A stretch of DNA of 33,580 nt, taken from positions 1-33,580 of the IMG/VR virus record IMGVR_UViG_3300046501_000098; one strand, written 5' to 3'. The notes under the pieces are model-generated. The model was given only the letters and a program-made list of their open reading frames with translations, had not been told where the DNA came from and did not search any database. The translations under genes were made by a program, and so were the position numbers. This stretch comes from a virus. Numbering within the stretch: the stretch's first letter is position 1; each line of letters begins with the position of its first letter. This document shows positions 4,698 through 29,929 of the stretch, piece by piece.

Positions 4698-4729
4698 GGG
4701 GTCACCTACGAATTTTCGTGGGTGGCCCC
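4698..4729. terminator. Terminator-like hairpin built on the CACCTACG palindrome (copy 2)
   Basis: GGGG at 4698-4701 and CCCC at 4726-4729 extend the 22 bp palindrome into a 15 bp stem (G-T wobbles only) around a two-base centre. No T-run follows, so efficiency is uncertain, and it could act in both directions. The full 32 bp sequence is identical to 24200-24231. It lies 13 bases after the capsid gene stop. Confidence 0.7.
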
Positions 4730-16461: not shown

Positions 16462-16479
16462 CGGTAACCCACTCGCTAG
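16462..16479 (+). promoter_or_regulatory. CGGTAACC element, copy a
   Basis: CGGTAACCCACTCGCTAG begins one base after the holin-region stop and ends 36 bases before the dNMP kinase start. It is one of six nearly identical intergenic copies. Function is not known: promoter, operator or RNA processing site are all possible. Confidence 0.75.
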
Positions 16480-17098: not shown

Positions 17099-17120
17099 CC
17101 CCTACGAATTTTCGTATGTG
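17099..17120. repeat. CACCTACG palindrome, copy 4, abutting a promoter
   Basis: CCCCTACGAA-TT-TTCGTATGTG ends two bases before the -35 box of the promoter at 17123. At this spot the palindrome looks more like an operator or activator site than a terminator. Confidence 0.8.
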
Positions 17121-17122
17121 AG

Positions 17123-17152
17123 TTGACACGCCATCAGCGGCGGACATAGTGT
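17123..17152 (+). promoter_or_regulatory. Strong sigma70-type promoter (P1)
   Basis: TTGACA (17123-17128, consensus -35), 18 base spacer, TAGTGT (17147-17152, actinobacterial -10), then a CCCTCGTAAGG block and a leader of about 40 bases to ATG 17197. The same arrangement recurs at 32494 and 33232. It is the best match to a housekeeping promoter in the window. Confidence 0.85.
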
Positions 17153-17196: not shown

Positions 17197-18189
17197 ATGG
17201 CTGAGAACACCGAGAACGTCGAAACCGTCATCGAGCAGATCGGCGCGAACATCGAGCGGGCGGCATCCCTCGTTGAGGCCGAGAACGCCGAGGGTCTCGC
17301 GGAGCTGAGCAAGGAGACCGAGGCCCTGGTTTCCTCGCTGCCCTCCCGTGGCAAGGCGCCGCACGGCGAGACGTGGGCCAAGACCAAGCAGAACATGCGC
17401 AACGACTTCCGCGCCGCCGCTGAGGTACAGGCCAAGCCCGAGCCCAAGGGTAAGGCCGTGGCTAAGGCGGCGCCTGCCGAGCCTGCCATCGACCCCAAGG
17501 ACTACAGCATCTACCAGGGCGTTACTGAGCTGATCGCCGACGGGGCCGAGCGCGTTGCCGAGGGTGTCAAGCTCCACATCAAGACCAGCAACCTTGCCAA
17601 GGAAGCTGCATCCATCATGCTGGACATGTGGCGGCGCATCCCCAACAAGGATGGCAACCCCGACATCATGGGTGACAGCCACGCAGCGAAGGAGGCGGCC
17701 CGTGCGCTGTACGCCAAGGCGGGGGAGGGCTTCCAGGATGACTACGACACTAAGGAGGCGCTCGACAAGCTTCAGCGCTCCGTACAGTCTCAGCGCAGCG
17801 ACGTCCGCGCCAAGTACCTGCGTGAGCTGGACGAGAACCCCGCCGAGCAGAAGCGCTACGCCAAGGCGCTGGAAGCCAAGCCCGAGGGTGTCACCGTGTC
17901 CGAGTTCATCGCTGACCTTTACGGTACGCAGTTGAAGGGGCACGGAGAGTTGGCGCGGGAGCGCTACCAGCTCAAGAAGGAACTTGGTGCTGATGCGCCC
18001 AAGGCGATCGAAGCTGACACCACGCCGGACGAGCGGGTGCAGTCGTTCGTCAAGCGCGTCCGGACCGACTTCGTCAAGGCCAGTCCGGAGGACTTCGAAG
18101 CGGCGAGCGACGAGACCAAGCAGTCGGTACGGGATGAGCTCATGGAACTGCGCGACGCGGTAAACGCCATGATCAAGGCCACCCTGTAG
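17197..18189 (+). CDS. Unknown 330-residue helical protein in its own transcription unit
   Basis: Not recognised. CAGGGGAG SD upstream. The product is highly charged and almost entirely helical by composition. Residues 1-50 are acidic (TENVETVIEQIGANIERAA). A Lys/Ala/Pro-rich linker spans about 78-98 (KPEPKGKAVAKAAPAEPA). A helical core runs to 250, with LAKEAASIMLDMWRRIPN and LDKLQRSVQSQRSDVRAKYL, then a basic/acidic C-terminal helix pair. There are no Cys, membrane segments or catalytic motifs. It is bounded by a terminator, the strongest promoter seen, and a canonical terminator, so it is a single-gene unit expected to be abundant. An early host-interaction or DNA-associated role is speculation. 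Confidence 0.85.
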   Translation: MAENTENVETVIEQIGANIERAASLVEAENAEGLAELSKETEALVSSLPSRGKAPHGETWAKTKQNMRNDFRAAAEVQAKPEPKGKAVAKAAPAEPAIDPKDYSIYQGVTELIADGAERVAEGVKLHIKTSNLAKEAASIMLDMWRRIPNKDGNPDIMGDSHAAKEAARALYAKAGEGFQDDYDTKEALDKLQRSVQSQRSDVRAKYLRELDENPAEQKRYAKALEAKPEGVTVSEFIADLYGTQLKGHGELARERYQLKKELGADAPKAIEADTTPDERVQSFVKRVRTDFVKASPEDFEAASDETKQSVRDELMELRDAVNAMIKATL

Positions 18190-24199: not shown

Positions 24200-24231
24200 G
24201 GGGTCACCTACGAATTTTCGTGGGTGGCCCC
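24200..24231. terminator. Terminator-like hairpin on the CACCTACG palindrome (copy 6)
   Basis: All 32 bases equal those at 4698-4729: GGGG-T, the palindrome, then CCCC, forming a 15 bp stem. It lies between primase stop and polymerase start, and CTTCG rather than a T-run follows. Core palindrome at 24205-24226. Confidence 0.75.
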
Positions 24232-24256
24232 TTCGCGTTCCATAGGAGGTACCCCC

Positions 24257-26107
24257 GTGAAGATCTACCCCTACGCCATCGCCGGTGAGCCGGTACAGGT
24301 CAAGGTTCCGGAAGACTCGCACGACTTGCGCGCGTTCCAGTACTGGTTCCAGGATGCCAACCGGCGCGGACCCATTGCGCTGGACACCGAGACCACCGGC
24401 CTTGACATCTACTCGCCTGGCTACCGCCTGCGCACGGTCCAGTTCGGCGACGCGCGTACGGCATGGGTCATCCACTGGGAGCGAGGCGGGCTCTTTGAGC
24501 AGTTCGCCCGCGAGGCTCTGCGCACGGGCACTAAGTTCCAGATCCACAACGCGCCGTTTGACTGGGCAGTGATCGACCGCCACGCAGGCGTGAGCATTGA
24601 GAGTCTCGCCCCACGCACTATCGACACGCGCCTAAAGGCTGGACTGGTCGACCCCCGTCAACCTCAGGAGGGAGGCCGGGGCACGGCACTGAAGCCGAAT
24701 GCGGCCTACTACATCGACCCTGCGGCCCCGGACACTCAGGGGGACCTTACGGCCGTGTTCCGCTCGCTGAAGCTGACCAAGACAACCGGGTGGGCGGGCA
24801 TTCCGCTGGACCACCCCACTTACAACCTGTACGCCGGTCTCGATGTGCTGCTGACGTCTCGGCTCGACGTGGCCCTAGACAACGAACTGCGCTTGCTCGA
24901 CGTCCGCCCTCGGCTGGTCCAGTACGAGCACGAGATCGCCCGCATCTGCGCCATCATGCAGCGCAAGGGGATGATCCTGGACGTTGACTACGCCAAGCAG
25001 TTGTCATCCACGCTTTCCGATGAGGCGCTCCGCTACGAGGCTCAGGCGCTCCGCTACGGGGTCGAGAACATCAACGCGTCCCGACAGGTCACCGACGCGC
25101 TACAGGCCATGGGGGAGACGCTCACGGACCTGACAGCATCCGGCGCCTTCAAGGCTGATAAGGCCGTCCTGTGTGCGCTCGCTGACCTTGACCAAAACAA
25201 CTGGACGCGACTTGGTGCGCGCACCCCCAACCCGCTCGCTGATGCCATCCTGCGCAGTAAGCGGGCAGGGAAGTGGAACAGCGCGTATGCGCAGACGTTC
25301 TTGGACGTGGCAGACACCGAGGGTCGCATCCACTGTTTCATCAACAGCATGCAGGCGCGAACGGGAAGGATGTCAATCACTCGCCCGGCGCTTCAGACTC
25401 TCCCGTCCAGCGACCAGACGATCCGCCGTGCACTGCTCGCTGAGCCTGGCGAAGTGATGGTCTCGACCGACTTTGCGGCGGTTGAACTGCGCGTGCTCGC
25501 TGCCCTCGGTGACGTGAAGAACATGAAGCGGGCGATAGCCAACGGCGAGGATCTCCACTCGTTCACCGCGCGCATGGTGTTCGGCGAAGGTTTCACCGCG
25601 AAGCATCGCAAGATCTCCAAGGGCATCGCGTTCGGCAAGGTGTACGGCGGAGGCGCTGCCACCATTTCTCGCCAGACTGGTGCGCCCCTGGAAGACGTCC
25701 GGCGTGCGATGGCTGCTTACGACCGGGTGTACCCGGAGATCAAGCGCATGTCCAACCGCATGCAGCGCGAGGCGTACGAGACCGGCATGGTTCACGTGTC
25801 CGTCACTGGTCGTCGCCTGCCGCTGGACCGGGACCGTACCTACGCCGTTGTGAACTACGGGGTGCAGAGTGCCGCACGTGACTGCCTCGGGCAGAGCCTG
25901 ATCAACATGGAGGAATCTGGGCTGCTCGACACGATGCGCCTGCCGATCCACGATGAGGTGCTCTGCTCGGTGCCGCAGGCTGAAGCGGCCGAGTACGCAC
26001 GTGCCATTGAGAAGTGCATGACGTTCGACCTGTACGGCGTGCCGATCGAAGCTGAGGCAGAGATTGGTAAGCGCTCGTGGGGCTCGCTGTACGGCGCTGA
26101 TGTGTAG
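24257..26107 (+). CDS. DNA polymerase I (family A) with 3'-5' exonuclease
   Basis: 616 residues from GTG 24257, chosen for its AGGAGG SD (24244-24249). A GTG at 24224 would lie in the hairpin. The replicative phage polymerase. Exonuclease motifs are LDTETTG (D43, E45), HNAPFDW (D102) and YNLYAGLD. Polymerase motif A is STDFAAVELR (D405; Phe where Tyr is common in DYSQIELR-type enzymes), motif B is HRKISKGIAFGKVYGG (450-465) and motif C is IHDEV (D566). There is no 5'-3' exonuclease domain, as in other phage enzymes. Upstream hairpin 24200 separates it from the primase unless read-through occurs. Confidence 0.95.
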   Translation: MKIYPYAIAGEPVQVKVPEDSHDLRAFQYWFQDANRRGPIALDTETTGLDIYSPGYRLRTVQFGDARTAWVIHWERGGLFEQFAREALRTGTKFQIHNAPFDWAVIDRHAGVSIESLAPRTIDTRLKAGLVDPRQPQEGGRGTALKPNAAYYIDPAAPDTQGDLTAVFRSLKLTKTTGWAGIPLDHPTYNLYAGLDVLLTSRLDVALDNELRLLDVRPRLVQYEHEIARICAIMQRKGMILDVDYAKQLSSTLSDEALRYEAQALRYGVENINASRQVTDALQAMGETLTDLTASGAFKADKAVLCALADLDQNNWTRLGARTPNPLADAILRSKRAGKWNSAYAQTFLDVADTEGRIHCFINSMQARTGRMSITRPALQTLPSSDQTIRRALLAEPGEVMVSTDFAAVELRVLAALGDVKNMKRAIANGEDLHSFTARMVFGEGFTAKHRKISKGIAFGKVYGGGAATISRQTGAPLEDVRRAMAAYDRVYPEIKRMSNRMQREAYETGMVHVSVTGRRLPLDRDRTYAVVNYGVQSAARDCLGQSLINMEESGLLDTMRLPIHDEVLCSVPQAEAAEYARAIEKCMTFDLYGVPIEAEAEIGKRSWGSLYGADV

Positions 26108-26120
26108 CTGAGCGTGAGAT

Positions 26121-26160
26121 GAGGGGCTGACTCCTGTCATGGGGTCGGCCCCTCTCCTAC
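26121..26160 (+). terminator. Terminator after DNA polymerase
   Basis: GAGGGGCTGACTCC (26121-26134) pairs across all 14 positions (two G-T wobbles) with GGGGTCGGCCCCTC (26141-26154) around a 6 base loop. The following TCCTACTTT is only weakly T-rich. Confidence 0.8.
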
Positions 26161-26479
26161 TTTGAGCAAACAAATTTTCTGACGGCGTCTCACCTGCAAA
26201 TCACAGCCGTTACCTACCCCTTAGCCCTGAAGGGTCGATGGTTCGTAGGTAGGACCCGGGGTCACGCCTTGGAATCCACTACAACGATCTCACCTAGTAG
26301 CTGGTCTTACAGGCAGGCAAGTACGAAAGCGCCTTGACCCACCTACGAAAAAACACGTAGAACTCACCTCAGCGAATCGAGTTATCCGGCCGGAGGCTCG
26401 AAGCGCAGACACCCCGCCTGTGGGGTTGCTCTGCTGAACGGTGCTGCCCCTTTGCGCACCAATCCGGCCGGACTCCCTC
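26160..26479 (+). promoter_or_regulatory. Long non-coding control region before the sigma-like gene
   Basis: 320 bases without a gene. Contents: degenerate members of the CACCTACG family (ACAAATTTTCTG near 26169; TTCGTAGGTAGG at 26242-26253; CACCTACGAA with CACGTAG at 26340-26360); a TTGACC (26334-26339), 18 base spacer, TAGAAC (26358-26363) promoter candidate that encloses the last site; two exact copies of the palindromic ATCCGGCCGGA (26384-26394, 26462-26472); and a small hairpin with arms CCCC/GGGG near 26415. It resembles a control or origin region. No tRNA fold was recognised. Confidence 0.55.
26334..26363 (+). promoter_or_regulatory. Candidate promoter overlapping a CACCTACG-type site
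   Basis: TTGACC and TAGAAC with an 18 base gap, as in P1-P3, but the last -10 base is C and the downstream CTCGTAAG block is missing. A degenerate palindrome fills the spacer, suggesting repression if a protein binds there. Confidence 0.45.
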
Positions 26480-26497
26480 AGGTAACCGACTCGCTAG
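26480..26497 (+). promoter_or_regulatory. CGGTAACC element, copy e
   Basis: AGGTAACCGACTCGCTAG (first base A), 33 bases before ATG 26531. The end extends into a perfect inverted repeat TCGCTAG-AGACAT-CTAGCGA (26491-26510). Confidence 0.76.
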
Positions 26498-26530
26498 AGA
26501 CATCTAGCGACCACCTGAAGGAGTCCCCGA

Positions 26531-27634
26531 ATGTCTCTCACCGTTGCTCAGATCGCTTCCGCTCAGTCCAACGACCTGACCGCCATCGGCGCCGTACTGG
26601 CCGAGATGGAGCCCACCGTTACTCGCCTCGCCGCTGAGGCTTCCCGCCGCCTGCCGAACGATCAGCGCGAGGATCTGGCACAGGATGCCCGCGAGGCGCT
26701 GTTCGTGGCGCTGGGCCGCTTCGATGGCTCGAAGGTCAAGGGCGATGTAGTCGACGGGTTCAACGGCTTCATGTTCCAGACGATTCGGGACGCGCTGAAG
26801 GACCGGGTTCGGGAGATGCGCTTCGAGGGTGCGGACAAGGATGCCGTCAAGGTCTTCATGTCCATGCGGGAACAGGCCGGGGACGACCTGTACCTGACCG
26901 CCAAGCTCGCTCAGACGGTTCCGCCCAAGGGTCTGCGCCTCTCTGCCGACCGTGCCGAGGCCGCCCGCATGGCGTTCCAGGGAGCCACCTACCTGATTCA
27001 GCAGGACGGCGACGACGAGTACTCGCTCGCTGACTCCCTCGCTGTGGTCGACGAGACGCCGCAGGTAAACCCCAAGGTGGGCCACGGTGCCGCACTGGAG
27101 GCGCTCGCAGTGCTCCACCGGTACACGACCGCTCGTGAGGTGCTGCGGAAGCTTCCTGCGACCGCTGAGGACGTTGACGCCATCGAAGATGCGATTGCCG
27201 TTCCGCGTGACGCTGATGTTCGCCGCTACGTGCTCGGTGCAATCTCGATCCTGCGTAGCTACGTGAGCACGGTTGCAGACGGCGAGCTTGCCAACGACCT
27301 GCGCGATGTGTCTGACGATCGGCGCGACGAGCGGGCAGCGAAGATCGGCAACGTTCACACGGCCCTCGGCAAGCTGTCGCCCGGTCAGCGTGGAGCCCTT
27401 CACTTCACGTTCGGTATCGACGGTGCGCAGGAGTTCGGCGAGGGTGACGGGTCGGACCTGGCCGGACTCGCTGAGGCCATGGGCACCACCGAGGGCAGCG
27501 CCAAGAAGACCCGCTCTGTTGCGAAGCAGTCGTTTGAGAAGCACTACGTTCCGCTCGTCGCCACCTCCGAGGGCGACGCACAGGAGTGGCACGCTGCTGC
27601 CGCTGAGGCTCGCAAGAACGCCGGGCGTAAGTGA
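26531..27634 (+). CDS. Sigma-factor-like protein
   Basis: 367 residues, GAAGGAG SD. The N-terminal part (about 40-97: RLPNDQREDLAQDAREALFV, ALGRFD, FNGFMFQTIRDALKDRVRE) matches sigma70 region 2 in pattern. The C-terminal part (about 274-342: LGKLSPGQRGALHFTFGID, then LAGLAEAMGTTEGSAKKTR) matches sigma region 4 with its helix-turn-helix. About 175 residues lie between, longer than in ECF sigmas and without a clear region 3. It may redirect host RNA polymerase to phage promoters such as the repeated elements in this window. It could also be an anti-host or non-sigma transcription factor. Its stop overlaps the second HNH gene. Confidence 0.72.
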   Translation: MSLTVAQIASAQSNDLTAIGAVLAEMEPTVTRLAAEASRRLPNDQREDLAQDAREALFVALGRFDGSKVKGDVVDGFNGFMFQTIRDALKDRVREMRFEGADKDAVKVFMSMREQAGDDLYLTAKLAQTVPPKGLRLSADRAEAARMAFQGATYLIQQDGDDEYSLADSLAVVDETPQVNPKVGHGAALEALAVLHRYTTAREVLRKLPATAEDVDAIEDAIAVPRDADVRRYVLGAISILRSYVSTVADGELANDLRDVSDDRRDERAAKIGNVHTALGKLSPGQRGALHFTFGIDGAQEFGEGDGSDLAGLAEAMGTTEGSAKKTRSVAKQSFEKHYVPLVATSEGDAQEWHAAAAEARKNAGRK

Positions 27635-27895: not shown

Positions 27896-29929
27896 TTGAG
27901 CATCACCCACGCCCCCGCCTTTGGCCCCACTGGGCAGACGGTCTACGAGCGGACCTACCAGCGTGTGAAGCCGAACGGCGAGCGGGAATCGTGGCTGGAC
28001 ACCGTGACTCGCGTGGTGGACGGAAACACGGGCCTGGTGCCTGCGGAGCGGATCGAGCCTGGCGAGCGAGACAGGCTCATTGAGCTCATGTATGACTTCA
28101 AGATCCTGCCCGCTGGTCGGCATCTCTGGGCCTCGGGTGTGCCCGGTCGTCAGTACCTGTTCAACTGCCATGTAAGTGGTTGGGAGCAGTCGCTGAGCGA
28201 GCACTTTGACTTCACCTTCATGCGTCTCATGGAGGGTGGGGGAGTCGGCGCGAACTACTCGTCTCGCTTCCTGAAGCCGTTCGGTGCCCCGGTGCGCCCG
28301 CTTGAGGTACACATCGTCTGCGACCCTGCACACCCGGACTACGAGGCCATGCTCGCCGCAGGTGTCCTCTCTGAGCACTACTCCTACGAGTGGGGCGGCG
28401 CGTTCGCTGTTGAAGACTCCCGCGAGGGTTGGTCCGCTGCAATGGTCGACCTGATCGATACCTACTACCGCGAGGCAAAGCACGCTGAGCGCGTCTATGA
28501 CGTCTCCCGTGTCCGTGGTGCTGGTGCTCCGCTGCGTACGTTCGGTGGCACCGCTTCCGGCCCCCGCCCGTTCGCTCGCATGATGCTCGACATTGCCTCG
28601 GTCATGAATGCCTCGGTTGGTGAAGCCCACGTCTCGCCCCTGGGCGCCATGGAGATGGATCACGCCATCGCTGAGTGTGTGGTATCGGGCGGTAACCGGC
28701 GCTCTGCCCGCATGGCAATGGTCGAGTGGGACGACCCGTCCATTTTCGAGTTCATCAACTGCAAGTCCGATTCGGCGAAGCACTGGACTACCAACATCAG
28801 CGTGGTGATCGACGACGCGTTCATTACCGCGCTGGGCGCCGAGGATCCTCACGCTGTGGCAGTGCATCGCGCAGCGACCGAGGGCATGCTCAACAACGGT
28901 GAGCCGGGTTACTGGAACAAGGATCTGTCCAACGTCGGCGAGCCCAACGAGGTCATTGCCACCAACCCGTGCGGCGAGATCGCGCTCGAAGCGTGGGAGA
29001 ACTGCAACCTAGGACACGTCAACCTTGACGCGTTCGCTCCTACGGCCAAGGGTCAGCGCGTCGACTGGACCGCCGTATTTGAGGCACACCGCTTGATGGC
29101 GCGCTTCCTGATCCGTGCCACCTACGGCGATGTGAACGACCCCAAGCAGGCAGCGAAGCTTGCCCGTAACCGGCGCATCGGTGTTGGCCACTTCGGCGTA
29201 CAGGGTTTCCTCGCCAAGCAGGGTGTTCGTTACAGCAGCGCGCCGGACAACCACAAGTTCATTCGCTCGCTTGAGTGGATGCGCTCCGCTGTTGATGACG
29301 CCGCCGCTGAGTACGCGCATGAACTGCGCATCCCGGTACCGGTGAAGACGACCACGGTTGCGCCCACCGGCACCATCGCCAAGATGCCTGGAGCCACCGA
29401 GGGTATCCACCCCATCTACGCCCGGCACTTCATCCGGCGTGTTCGTTTCAGCGTGGTGGACGAGCGGCAGGCGGCGACGGTCGAGCAGTACCGGGCCGAG
29501 GGTTACACCGTGGAGCAGGACGTGTACGACGCTTCCGGCAACACGGTGGTAGTCGAGTTCCCCACCAAGGAGAAGCTAGTCCAGGAGGTTGAGGCGCTCG
29601 GGTACTCCGCTGGGCTGGTCGAGTCGGCCGATGAAATCCCCTTCGCTGACATGCTCGCGTTCCAGGAGATGTACCAGTCCCACTACGCCAACAACGCCGT
29701 GAGCTTCACGGTGAACATCGCCCCCGGGTCCATCTCGCTGGAAGACGCCATGGAGACCCTGCGCAGCTTCCTGCCGACCCTGAAGGGCACCACCGTGTTC
29801 CCTGACCTCACGCGCCCGCAGAGCCCCTACGAGCGGATGACTGAAGCGGCATACGAGGAGTCGGCGCAGCGAAGCGTAGATGCCTCTTACGACGAAGCCT
29901 GCGCGTCCGGTGCGTGCCCGGTGAAGTGA
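27896..29929 (+). CDS. nrdJ: Class II (adenosylcobalamin-dependent) ribonucleotide reductase
   Basis: 677 residues, TTG start with AAGGAGA SD. It would make deoxyribonucleotides from ribonucleotides with a B12 radical, without oxygen. Key residues match the monomeric Lactobacillus-type enzyme in identity and spacing: C91 (FNCHVS), C359 and E361 (NPCGE), C370 (ENCNLGH; 11 residues after C359, as in C408/C419 of that enzyme), and the C-terminal redox pair C669 and C674 (CASGAC). No NrdA/B-type partner exists. PTGTIAKMPGATEGIHPIYA is the phosphate-binding loop region. A thioredoxin-like gene lies downstream as possible reductant. CTA occurs only about twice. Confidence 0.93.
   Translation: MSITHAPAFGPTGQTVYERTYQRVKPNGERESWLDTVTRVVDGNTGLVPAERIEPGERDRLIELMYDFKILPAGRHLWASGVPGRQYLFNCHVSGWEQSLSEHFDFTFMRLMEGGGVGANYSSRFLKPFGAPVRPLEVHIVCDPAHPDYEAMLAAGVLSEHYSYEWGGAFAVEDSREGWSAAMVDLIDTYYREAKHAERVYDVSRVRGAGAPLRTFGGTASGPRPFARMMLDIASVMNASVGEAHVSPLGAMEMDHAIAECVVSGGNRRSARMAMVEWDDPSIFEFINCKSDSAKHWTTNISVVIDDAFITALGAEDPHAVAVHRAATEGMLNNGEPGYWNKDLSNVGEPNEVIATNPCGEIALEAWENCNLGHVNLDAFAPTAKGQRVDWTAVFEAHRLMARFLIRATYGDVNDPKQAAKLARNRRIGVGHFGVQGFLAKQGVRYSSAPDNHKFIRSLEWMRSAVDDAAAEYAHELRIPVPVKTTTVAPTGTIAKMPGATEGIHPIYARHFIRRVRFSVVDERQAATVEQYRAEGYTVEQDVYDASGNTVVVEFPTKEKLVQEVEALGYSAGLVESADEIPFADMLAFQEMYQSHYANNAVSFTVNIAPGSISLEDAMETLRSFLPTLKGTTVFPDLTRPQSPYERMTEAAYEESAQRSVDASYDEACASGACPVK

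Follow-up and report, generated by a model that had tools for sequence, protein, structure and literature searches.

A conserved gap upstream of the sigma-like gene gp12 in phiC31-like phages is a candidate repressor-controlled early promoter region with a predicted structured RNA

Results

phiC31 and its relatives are the source of widely used Streptomyces tools. The window analysed here, the whole stretch of 33,580 nucleotides of IMG/VR record IMGVR_UViG_3300046501_000098, belongs to a phiC31-like phage; among named phages, Streptomyces phage Rowa is the closest to it (72% over approximately half of the query). The genes on the + strand run in the order repressor c (17197..18189; PF25746 Phage_Repressor_c, E 3.2e-71), exonuclease, primase, DNA polymerase I (24224..26107; PF00476, E 6.5e-59, phrog_17), gp12 (26531..27634; phrog_15865, E 8e-89), class II ribonucleotide reductase and ThyX. 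gp12 is a divergent sigma-70-family protein, with profile matches to regions 2 and 4 of solved sigma factors (best E 1.1e-7). The ribonucleotide reductase between gp12 and ThyX (27896-29929) is B12-dependent, and none of this class is annotated in the corresponding stretch of Rowa or phiC31. Directly upstream of c lies a strong promoter-like sequence, TTGACA-N18-TAGTGT (17123-17152), which adjoins an operator palindrome at 17099-17120.

Between the polymerase stop codon (26105-26107) and the gp12 ATG (26531) are 423 non-coding bases (26108-26530). The first-pass annotation had singled out this gap of over 400 bases between polymerase and a sigma-like gene as a control or origin region, and both its size and its location hold. 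We measured the gap in approximately 20 named phages and in 70 IMG/VR loci, which include near-duplicates; the relatives were retrieved via the neighbouring gene, so the sampling is independent of the gap itself. Absence from relatives would have spoken against a control or origin region, and nearly all of approximately 70 relatives have the gap, among them phiC31, phiBT1, TG1 and Rowa. Its length is mostly 390-540 nt, with shorter gaps at L037 (335), L044 (339), L049 (362), L076 (330) and L098 (292) and in phiSASD1 (234, or 300 by the tblastn start), and longer ones at L101 (596), L087 (824) and in Samy (1387 nt, including ORFs). No gap is longer in the annotated part of phiC31 that we examined, and in TG1 only one is. 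Two distinct gp12 loci (L040 and L051) occur on a single IMG/VR contig, 3300046690_000279 (81,716 bases), which may be chimeric or contain two related phages.

The core of the gap (26230-26365) has 56-78% identity to nine relatives and its RNA part 71-80%; DNA-level identity of gp12 to the same nine is 59-70%. Searches with the phiC31 and Rowa cores matched only the equivalent place in relatives, and blastn of the window's gap alone against phages gave no match. Upstream of approximately 26333 the sequence is conserved (26230..26333; TTC..AGG..GTNACGCCTTSGAATC and TACAACGA..TAGTAGCTGGTC) and structure is slight, with alifold z of -2.1 on the + strand and -2.3 on the - strand. A palindrome, GGCATATGCC or one resembling it, also recurs in many gaps, where it takes either of two positions (L033, L050, L056 and L071; L003 at 10194).

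No conserved open frame was found by inspection of 18 sampled gaps; the position and reading frame of the longest one change from gap to gap, and the idea of a small protein was dropped. The Euratis record has a 39-residue hypothetical protein annotated within the gap. Among the phage records compared, phiC31 included, none annotates an RNA or promoter there. Rfam gave no match at E up to 1 over 25900-26700, with no family threshold reached, and a tRNA scan found no tRNA.

Two elements of the gap were assigned by comparison. After pol, a terminator-like hairpin, GAGGGGCTGACTCC-TGTCAT-GGGGTCGGCCCCTC (26121..26154, + strand), has a counterpart in group A, the window's own group of relatives, and an annotated terminator in phages Shaeky and Shady. 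Farther downstream, the candidate promoter P1 (26334..26363, + strand) consists of a -35 TTGACC (26334-26339), an 18-base spacer and a -10-like TAGAAC (26358-26363). The first-pass annotation had listed a terminator and a promoter candidate overlapped by a degenerate palindrome site. The hairpin is present, as is TTGACC-N18-TAGAAC with CACCTACGAA across it, but a strict consensus scan called neither a promoter nor an intrinsic terminator in the gap, so P1 and the terminator rest on comparison and not on consensus score. The best counterpart of P1 is TTGACC-N18-TACTAT in the phiSASD1 group. The phiC31 group has TACGTT, TATGTT or TAGTGT at -10 and lacks a clear -35; the window's own -10 is missing its final T, and in several relatives the -10 is poor.

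The sequence within the P1 spacer belongs to a family of operator-like palindromes, CACCTACGAA(NN)TTCGTAGGTG, of which the window has eight good sites outside the gap; a scan allowing ≤7 mismatches gave nine matches against a shuffled mean of 1.0. At P1, the putative repressor half-operator CCACCTACGAA (26339..26349, no strand assigned) matches the half-site of the window's palindromes elsewhere, and its second half is degenerate. This element changes phage by phage in step with each phage's own palindrome elsewhere: it is CACCTACGAA in the window, CACCTACCAA in L036, L054 and L056, CACCTACGGA in L034, L042 and L050, CACCTACAG in L072, CACCTCCGAA in Rowa, CTACTCACGTGAGTAG in phiC31 and CGACTCAATTGAGTCG in phiSASD1. 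Further copies of each are present in the same phage's record, and none was found for Heather and L081 in the stretch of record compared. The natural reading is that the P1 element is a putative repressor site whose sequence depends on immunity type. The operator of the phiC31 group lies over the -35 position, compared with inside the spacer in the window. Two identical 32-base hairpins, GGGGTCACCTACGAATTTTCGTGGGTGGCCCC, at 4698-4729 and 24200-24231, hold the operator palindrome within a terminator-like stem, which suggests a putative dual role, as repressor-binding sites and as terminators.

These sites have parallels in known immunity systems. Like phiC31, the window combines a c gene with many intergenic palindromes, which we take to be the published phiC31 conserved intergenic inverted repeats (CIBs), and it has a half-copy of the palindrome at a candidate promoter. 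phiC31 itself has two CTACTCACGTGAGTAG copies within the gap; in group A, by comparison, the operator at P1 is only half intact. Mycobacteriophage L5 and Streptomyces phage R4 have repressor-stoperator systems. In R4, sites for the repressor are dispersed among the genes, with a further one at an early promoter (PMC10276819). The putative sites of the window are similarly arranged, intergenic with one at a candidate early promoter, but they are palindromic, and two of them lie within terminator-like hairpins.

At the downstream side of the gap, the 17-base element D2, GGTAACCGACTCGCTAG (26481..26497, + strand), is a putative phage-specific promoter. With ≤1 mismatch it has seven copies, all on the + strand in the early region of the window (16463, 18419, 19304, 21696, 24123, 26481 and 29932), and a scan with ≤3 mismatches gave eight matches against 0.10 expected. 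The copies at 16463, 18419, 21696 and 26481 lie 48-53 bases before a start codon, and TG1 has a related motif, CGACTC[GC]CT, 38-51 bases before several early starts. Ingham and colleagues reportedly described 'novel' early promoters of phiC31 in 1993; D2 is likewise repeated, unlike sigma-70 promoters and placed in front of early genes. It is a guess that gp12 recognises D2. A hairpin TCGCTAG/CTAGCGA overlaps the end of D2 and extends to 26510. The extended element described in the first-pass annotation, TCGCTAG-AGACAT-CTAGCGA, is indeed at 26491-26510, but the copy in the gap reads AGGTAACC and not the CGGTAACC given there. The pattern CTACAACGA-N8-TAGTAG gave scattered matches in IMG/VR, which we took as chance.

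Between P1 and D2 lies a predicted structured RNA (26370..26480, + strand) with a predicted start near 26370, identified by folding and a covariance model (RNA fold z -3.06; alifold z -3.98). The corresponding start predicted for phiC31 is at approximately 29,778 in NC_001978, some 7 bases beyond the -10. Its first hairpin, HP1 (26378..26400), has the stem CGAGTT/GGCTCG and a constant loop, ATCCGGCCGGA. The stem pairs vary between C-G, U-A, U-G and G-C, with compensatory change in three of the six pairs and 100% of cells paired in 16 sequences. HP2 (26405..26434; GCAGA..CCC/GGG..TCTGC) has approximately 94% of cells paired and compensatory changes in two pairs, and HP3 (26440..26460; GGTGC/GCACC) is predicted from the minimum-energy structure of the window. 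Over HP1 and HP2 together, 97.3% of cells are paired in the window-group alignment (16 sequences), and the covariation score of 0.190 compares with ≤0.031 for slid controls and was reached in none of 500 shuffles. In the phiC31 group HP1 is invariant and two other hairpins vary, with 92.6% paired compared with ≤50% for slid controls. The region thus has the structure with compensatory changes looked for in a cis-regulatory leader or non-coding RNA, and the RNA that the first-pass annotation had proposed seeking gains support from these changes in the predicted fold. Single-sequence folds of 30 gaps have a mean z of -6.0 on the + strand and -4.5 on the - strand, both beyond shuffles. Over the listed pairs of the phiC31-group alignment, 38 G-U cells compare with 6 A-C cells, an excess that favours an RNA read from the + strand, bearing in mind that the helices were picked by an energy model that permits G-U.

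A covariance model built from the window's group, R1, has one good match in the window. It also matches Rowa (E 7.5e-9), L072, L071 and L077; on Rowa-type phages outside the training set E is 5e-7 to 9e-10, with L073 and L082 weaker, the latter marginal. Nine of ten phage records have a match, with at most one strong match each. In the 8.6 Mb Streptomyces genome G011 the single match lies upstream of a prophage gp12, and with stricter filters this was the sole genome matched among 150 from Streptomyces. A gp12 scan of the species genomes found one prophage locus with the L077 protein and none with the window protein.

The HP1 loop is the first of two exact copies of the palindrome ATCCGGCCGGA, which lie at 26384 and 26462, 78 bases apart, as the first-pass annotation had noted. 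With ≤1 mismatch the window has five matches to it against 1.15 expected, a number reached by 1 of 100 shuffles. Within the second copy (26462-26472) lies a tail, TCCGGCC (26463..26469, + strand), that is complementary to the loop. A palindrome 6 or more bases long lies in the HP1 loop of 59 of 67 phages (88%), compared with 3-43% at other positions in the gap, the flank of the same loop set aside. Several unrelated sequences fill this place, and self-complementary apical loops include TCCGGCCGGA, CTGATCAG, CTTGATCAAG, GCGCGC, ACGCGT, TGCGCA and GTGCGCAC.

In group A, loop and tail are 99% paired yet invariant, and therefore uninformative there by themselves. We sought the complement of each loop 45-135 bases downstream, in its own phage and in swapped phages. 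Among phages without CCGGCCGG (n = 41), loop-tail pairing was 5.78 with own and 5.09 with swapped sequences (0 of 1000 permutations), and in group D (the Shaeky group) it was 7.5 and 5.8 (p 0.0035); the phiC31 group (p 0.05) and the Rowa types (p 0.07) each gave a borderline result. The tail is misplaced in the eight-phage alignment of group D, so the claim of loop-tail pairing rests on these permutation tests. In Shady and Sycamore the loops are non-palindromic and still complementary to their own tails. The minimum-energy fold of the window forms the loop-tail helix and opens HP1, the HP1 stem and the full helix being in competition. Because comparison supports both, a pseudoknot or two alternating states are possible.

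Discussion

On balance, the gap probably serves as the early lytic promoter region of the sigma gene gp12, one that is controlled by the repressor and yields a structured leader or small RNA. Host RNA polymerase would start transcription from P1, beyond the pol terminator. Lysogens would keep P1 shut through repressor c bound at the operator element of its spacer. When the repressor is absent, a transcript would begin near 26370, its first approximately 110 nt would fold (HP1, HP2 and loop-tail pairing) and gp12 would then be read. gp12 might in turn help early-gene transcription, perhaps from D2 elements, one of which stands just before gp12 itself. The conservation, the operator tracking, the compensatory changes, the D2 repeats and the sigma homology are all read directly from the sequences; the use of P1, the binding of repressor there, the role of the RNA as a leader or small RNA and the reading of D2 by gp12 are what we infer. 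The half-site of the phage's own operator over the promoter, the repeated early-gene element and the conservation all back the 'control region' of the first-pass annotation.

The other half of that description, a lytic replication origin at which replication would be primed or activated by a structured non-coding RNA from a repressor-controlled promoter, is a plausible but unlikely alternative. The origin of lactococcal phage c2 makes a non-coding PE1 transcript from the stretch between the first two early promoters (PMC7150918). The gap has a similar order of promoter, structured RNA, second promoter-like element and gene, with the candidate promoters P1 and D2 flanking the stretch, but phiC31-like phages differ from c2 in carrying their own DNA polymerase and primase. 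The position within the primase-polymerase module and the rank of the gap among the longest in phiC31 and TG1 also suit an origin, as does the conserved DNA upstream of P1 (approximately 100 bp), which exceeds the needs of a simple promoter. However, GC skew, which the first-pass annotation had proposed as a check over the whole genome, has no polarity switch at the gap, although this is a weak criterion for small phages. Searches of plasmids gave no match to the gap, and CCTTCGAA-like sites, considered as iterons, are abundant outside the gap too, with no initiator-like repeat confined to it.

We think it improbable that the RNA is a separate trans-acting small RNA ending before D2 rather than a gp12 leader. 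The predicted structure does stop just short of D2, which could itself start gp12 transcription, but no clear terminator separates the tail from D2, and every occurrence of the RNA region that we found is immediately upstream of gp12. The leader, small RNA and origin transcript readings overlap, and the same promoter could serve all of them.

A DNA array of c operators and early-gene elements, with hairpins that are incidental or are protein-binding palindromes, would account for the real and repeated operators and D2, the upstream half conserved with little structure and the palindromic HP1 loop of most phages, but is quite improbable given an HP1 stem that varies by compensation around a constant centre, the G-U excess, and the non-palindromic loops of Shady and Sycamore that still match their own tails.

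Returning to the promoter reading, a further and doubtful proposal is that the transcript belongs to an RNA family whose apical loop is mostly self-complementary whatever its sequence and also pairs with the tail of the same molecule. Such an RNA would dimerise or switch and, under repressor control, would time sigma-factor expression or prime replication. The gap is one of the longest non-coding regions in phiC31 and its relatives, and regulatory annotation of it is absent from the records compared. If the repressor-promoter reading is true, the gap marks the repressor-controlled start of the lytic programme and contributes an RNA, supported by compensatory changes, that is missing from Rfam; it would then be the place to test the trigger of early transcription and the start of replication.
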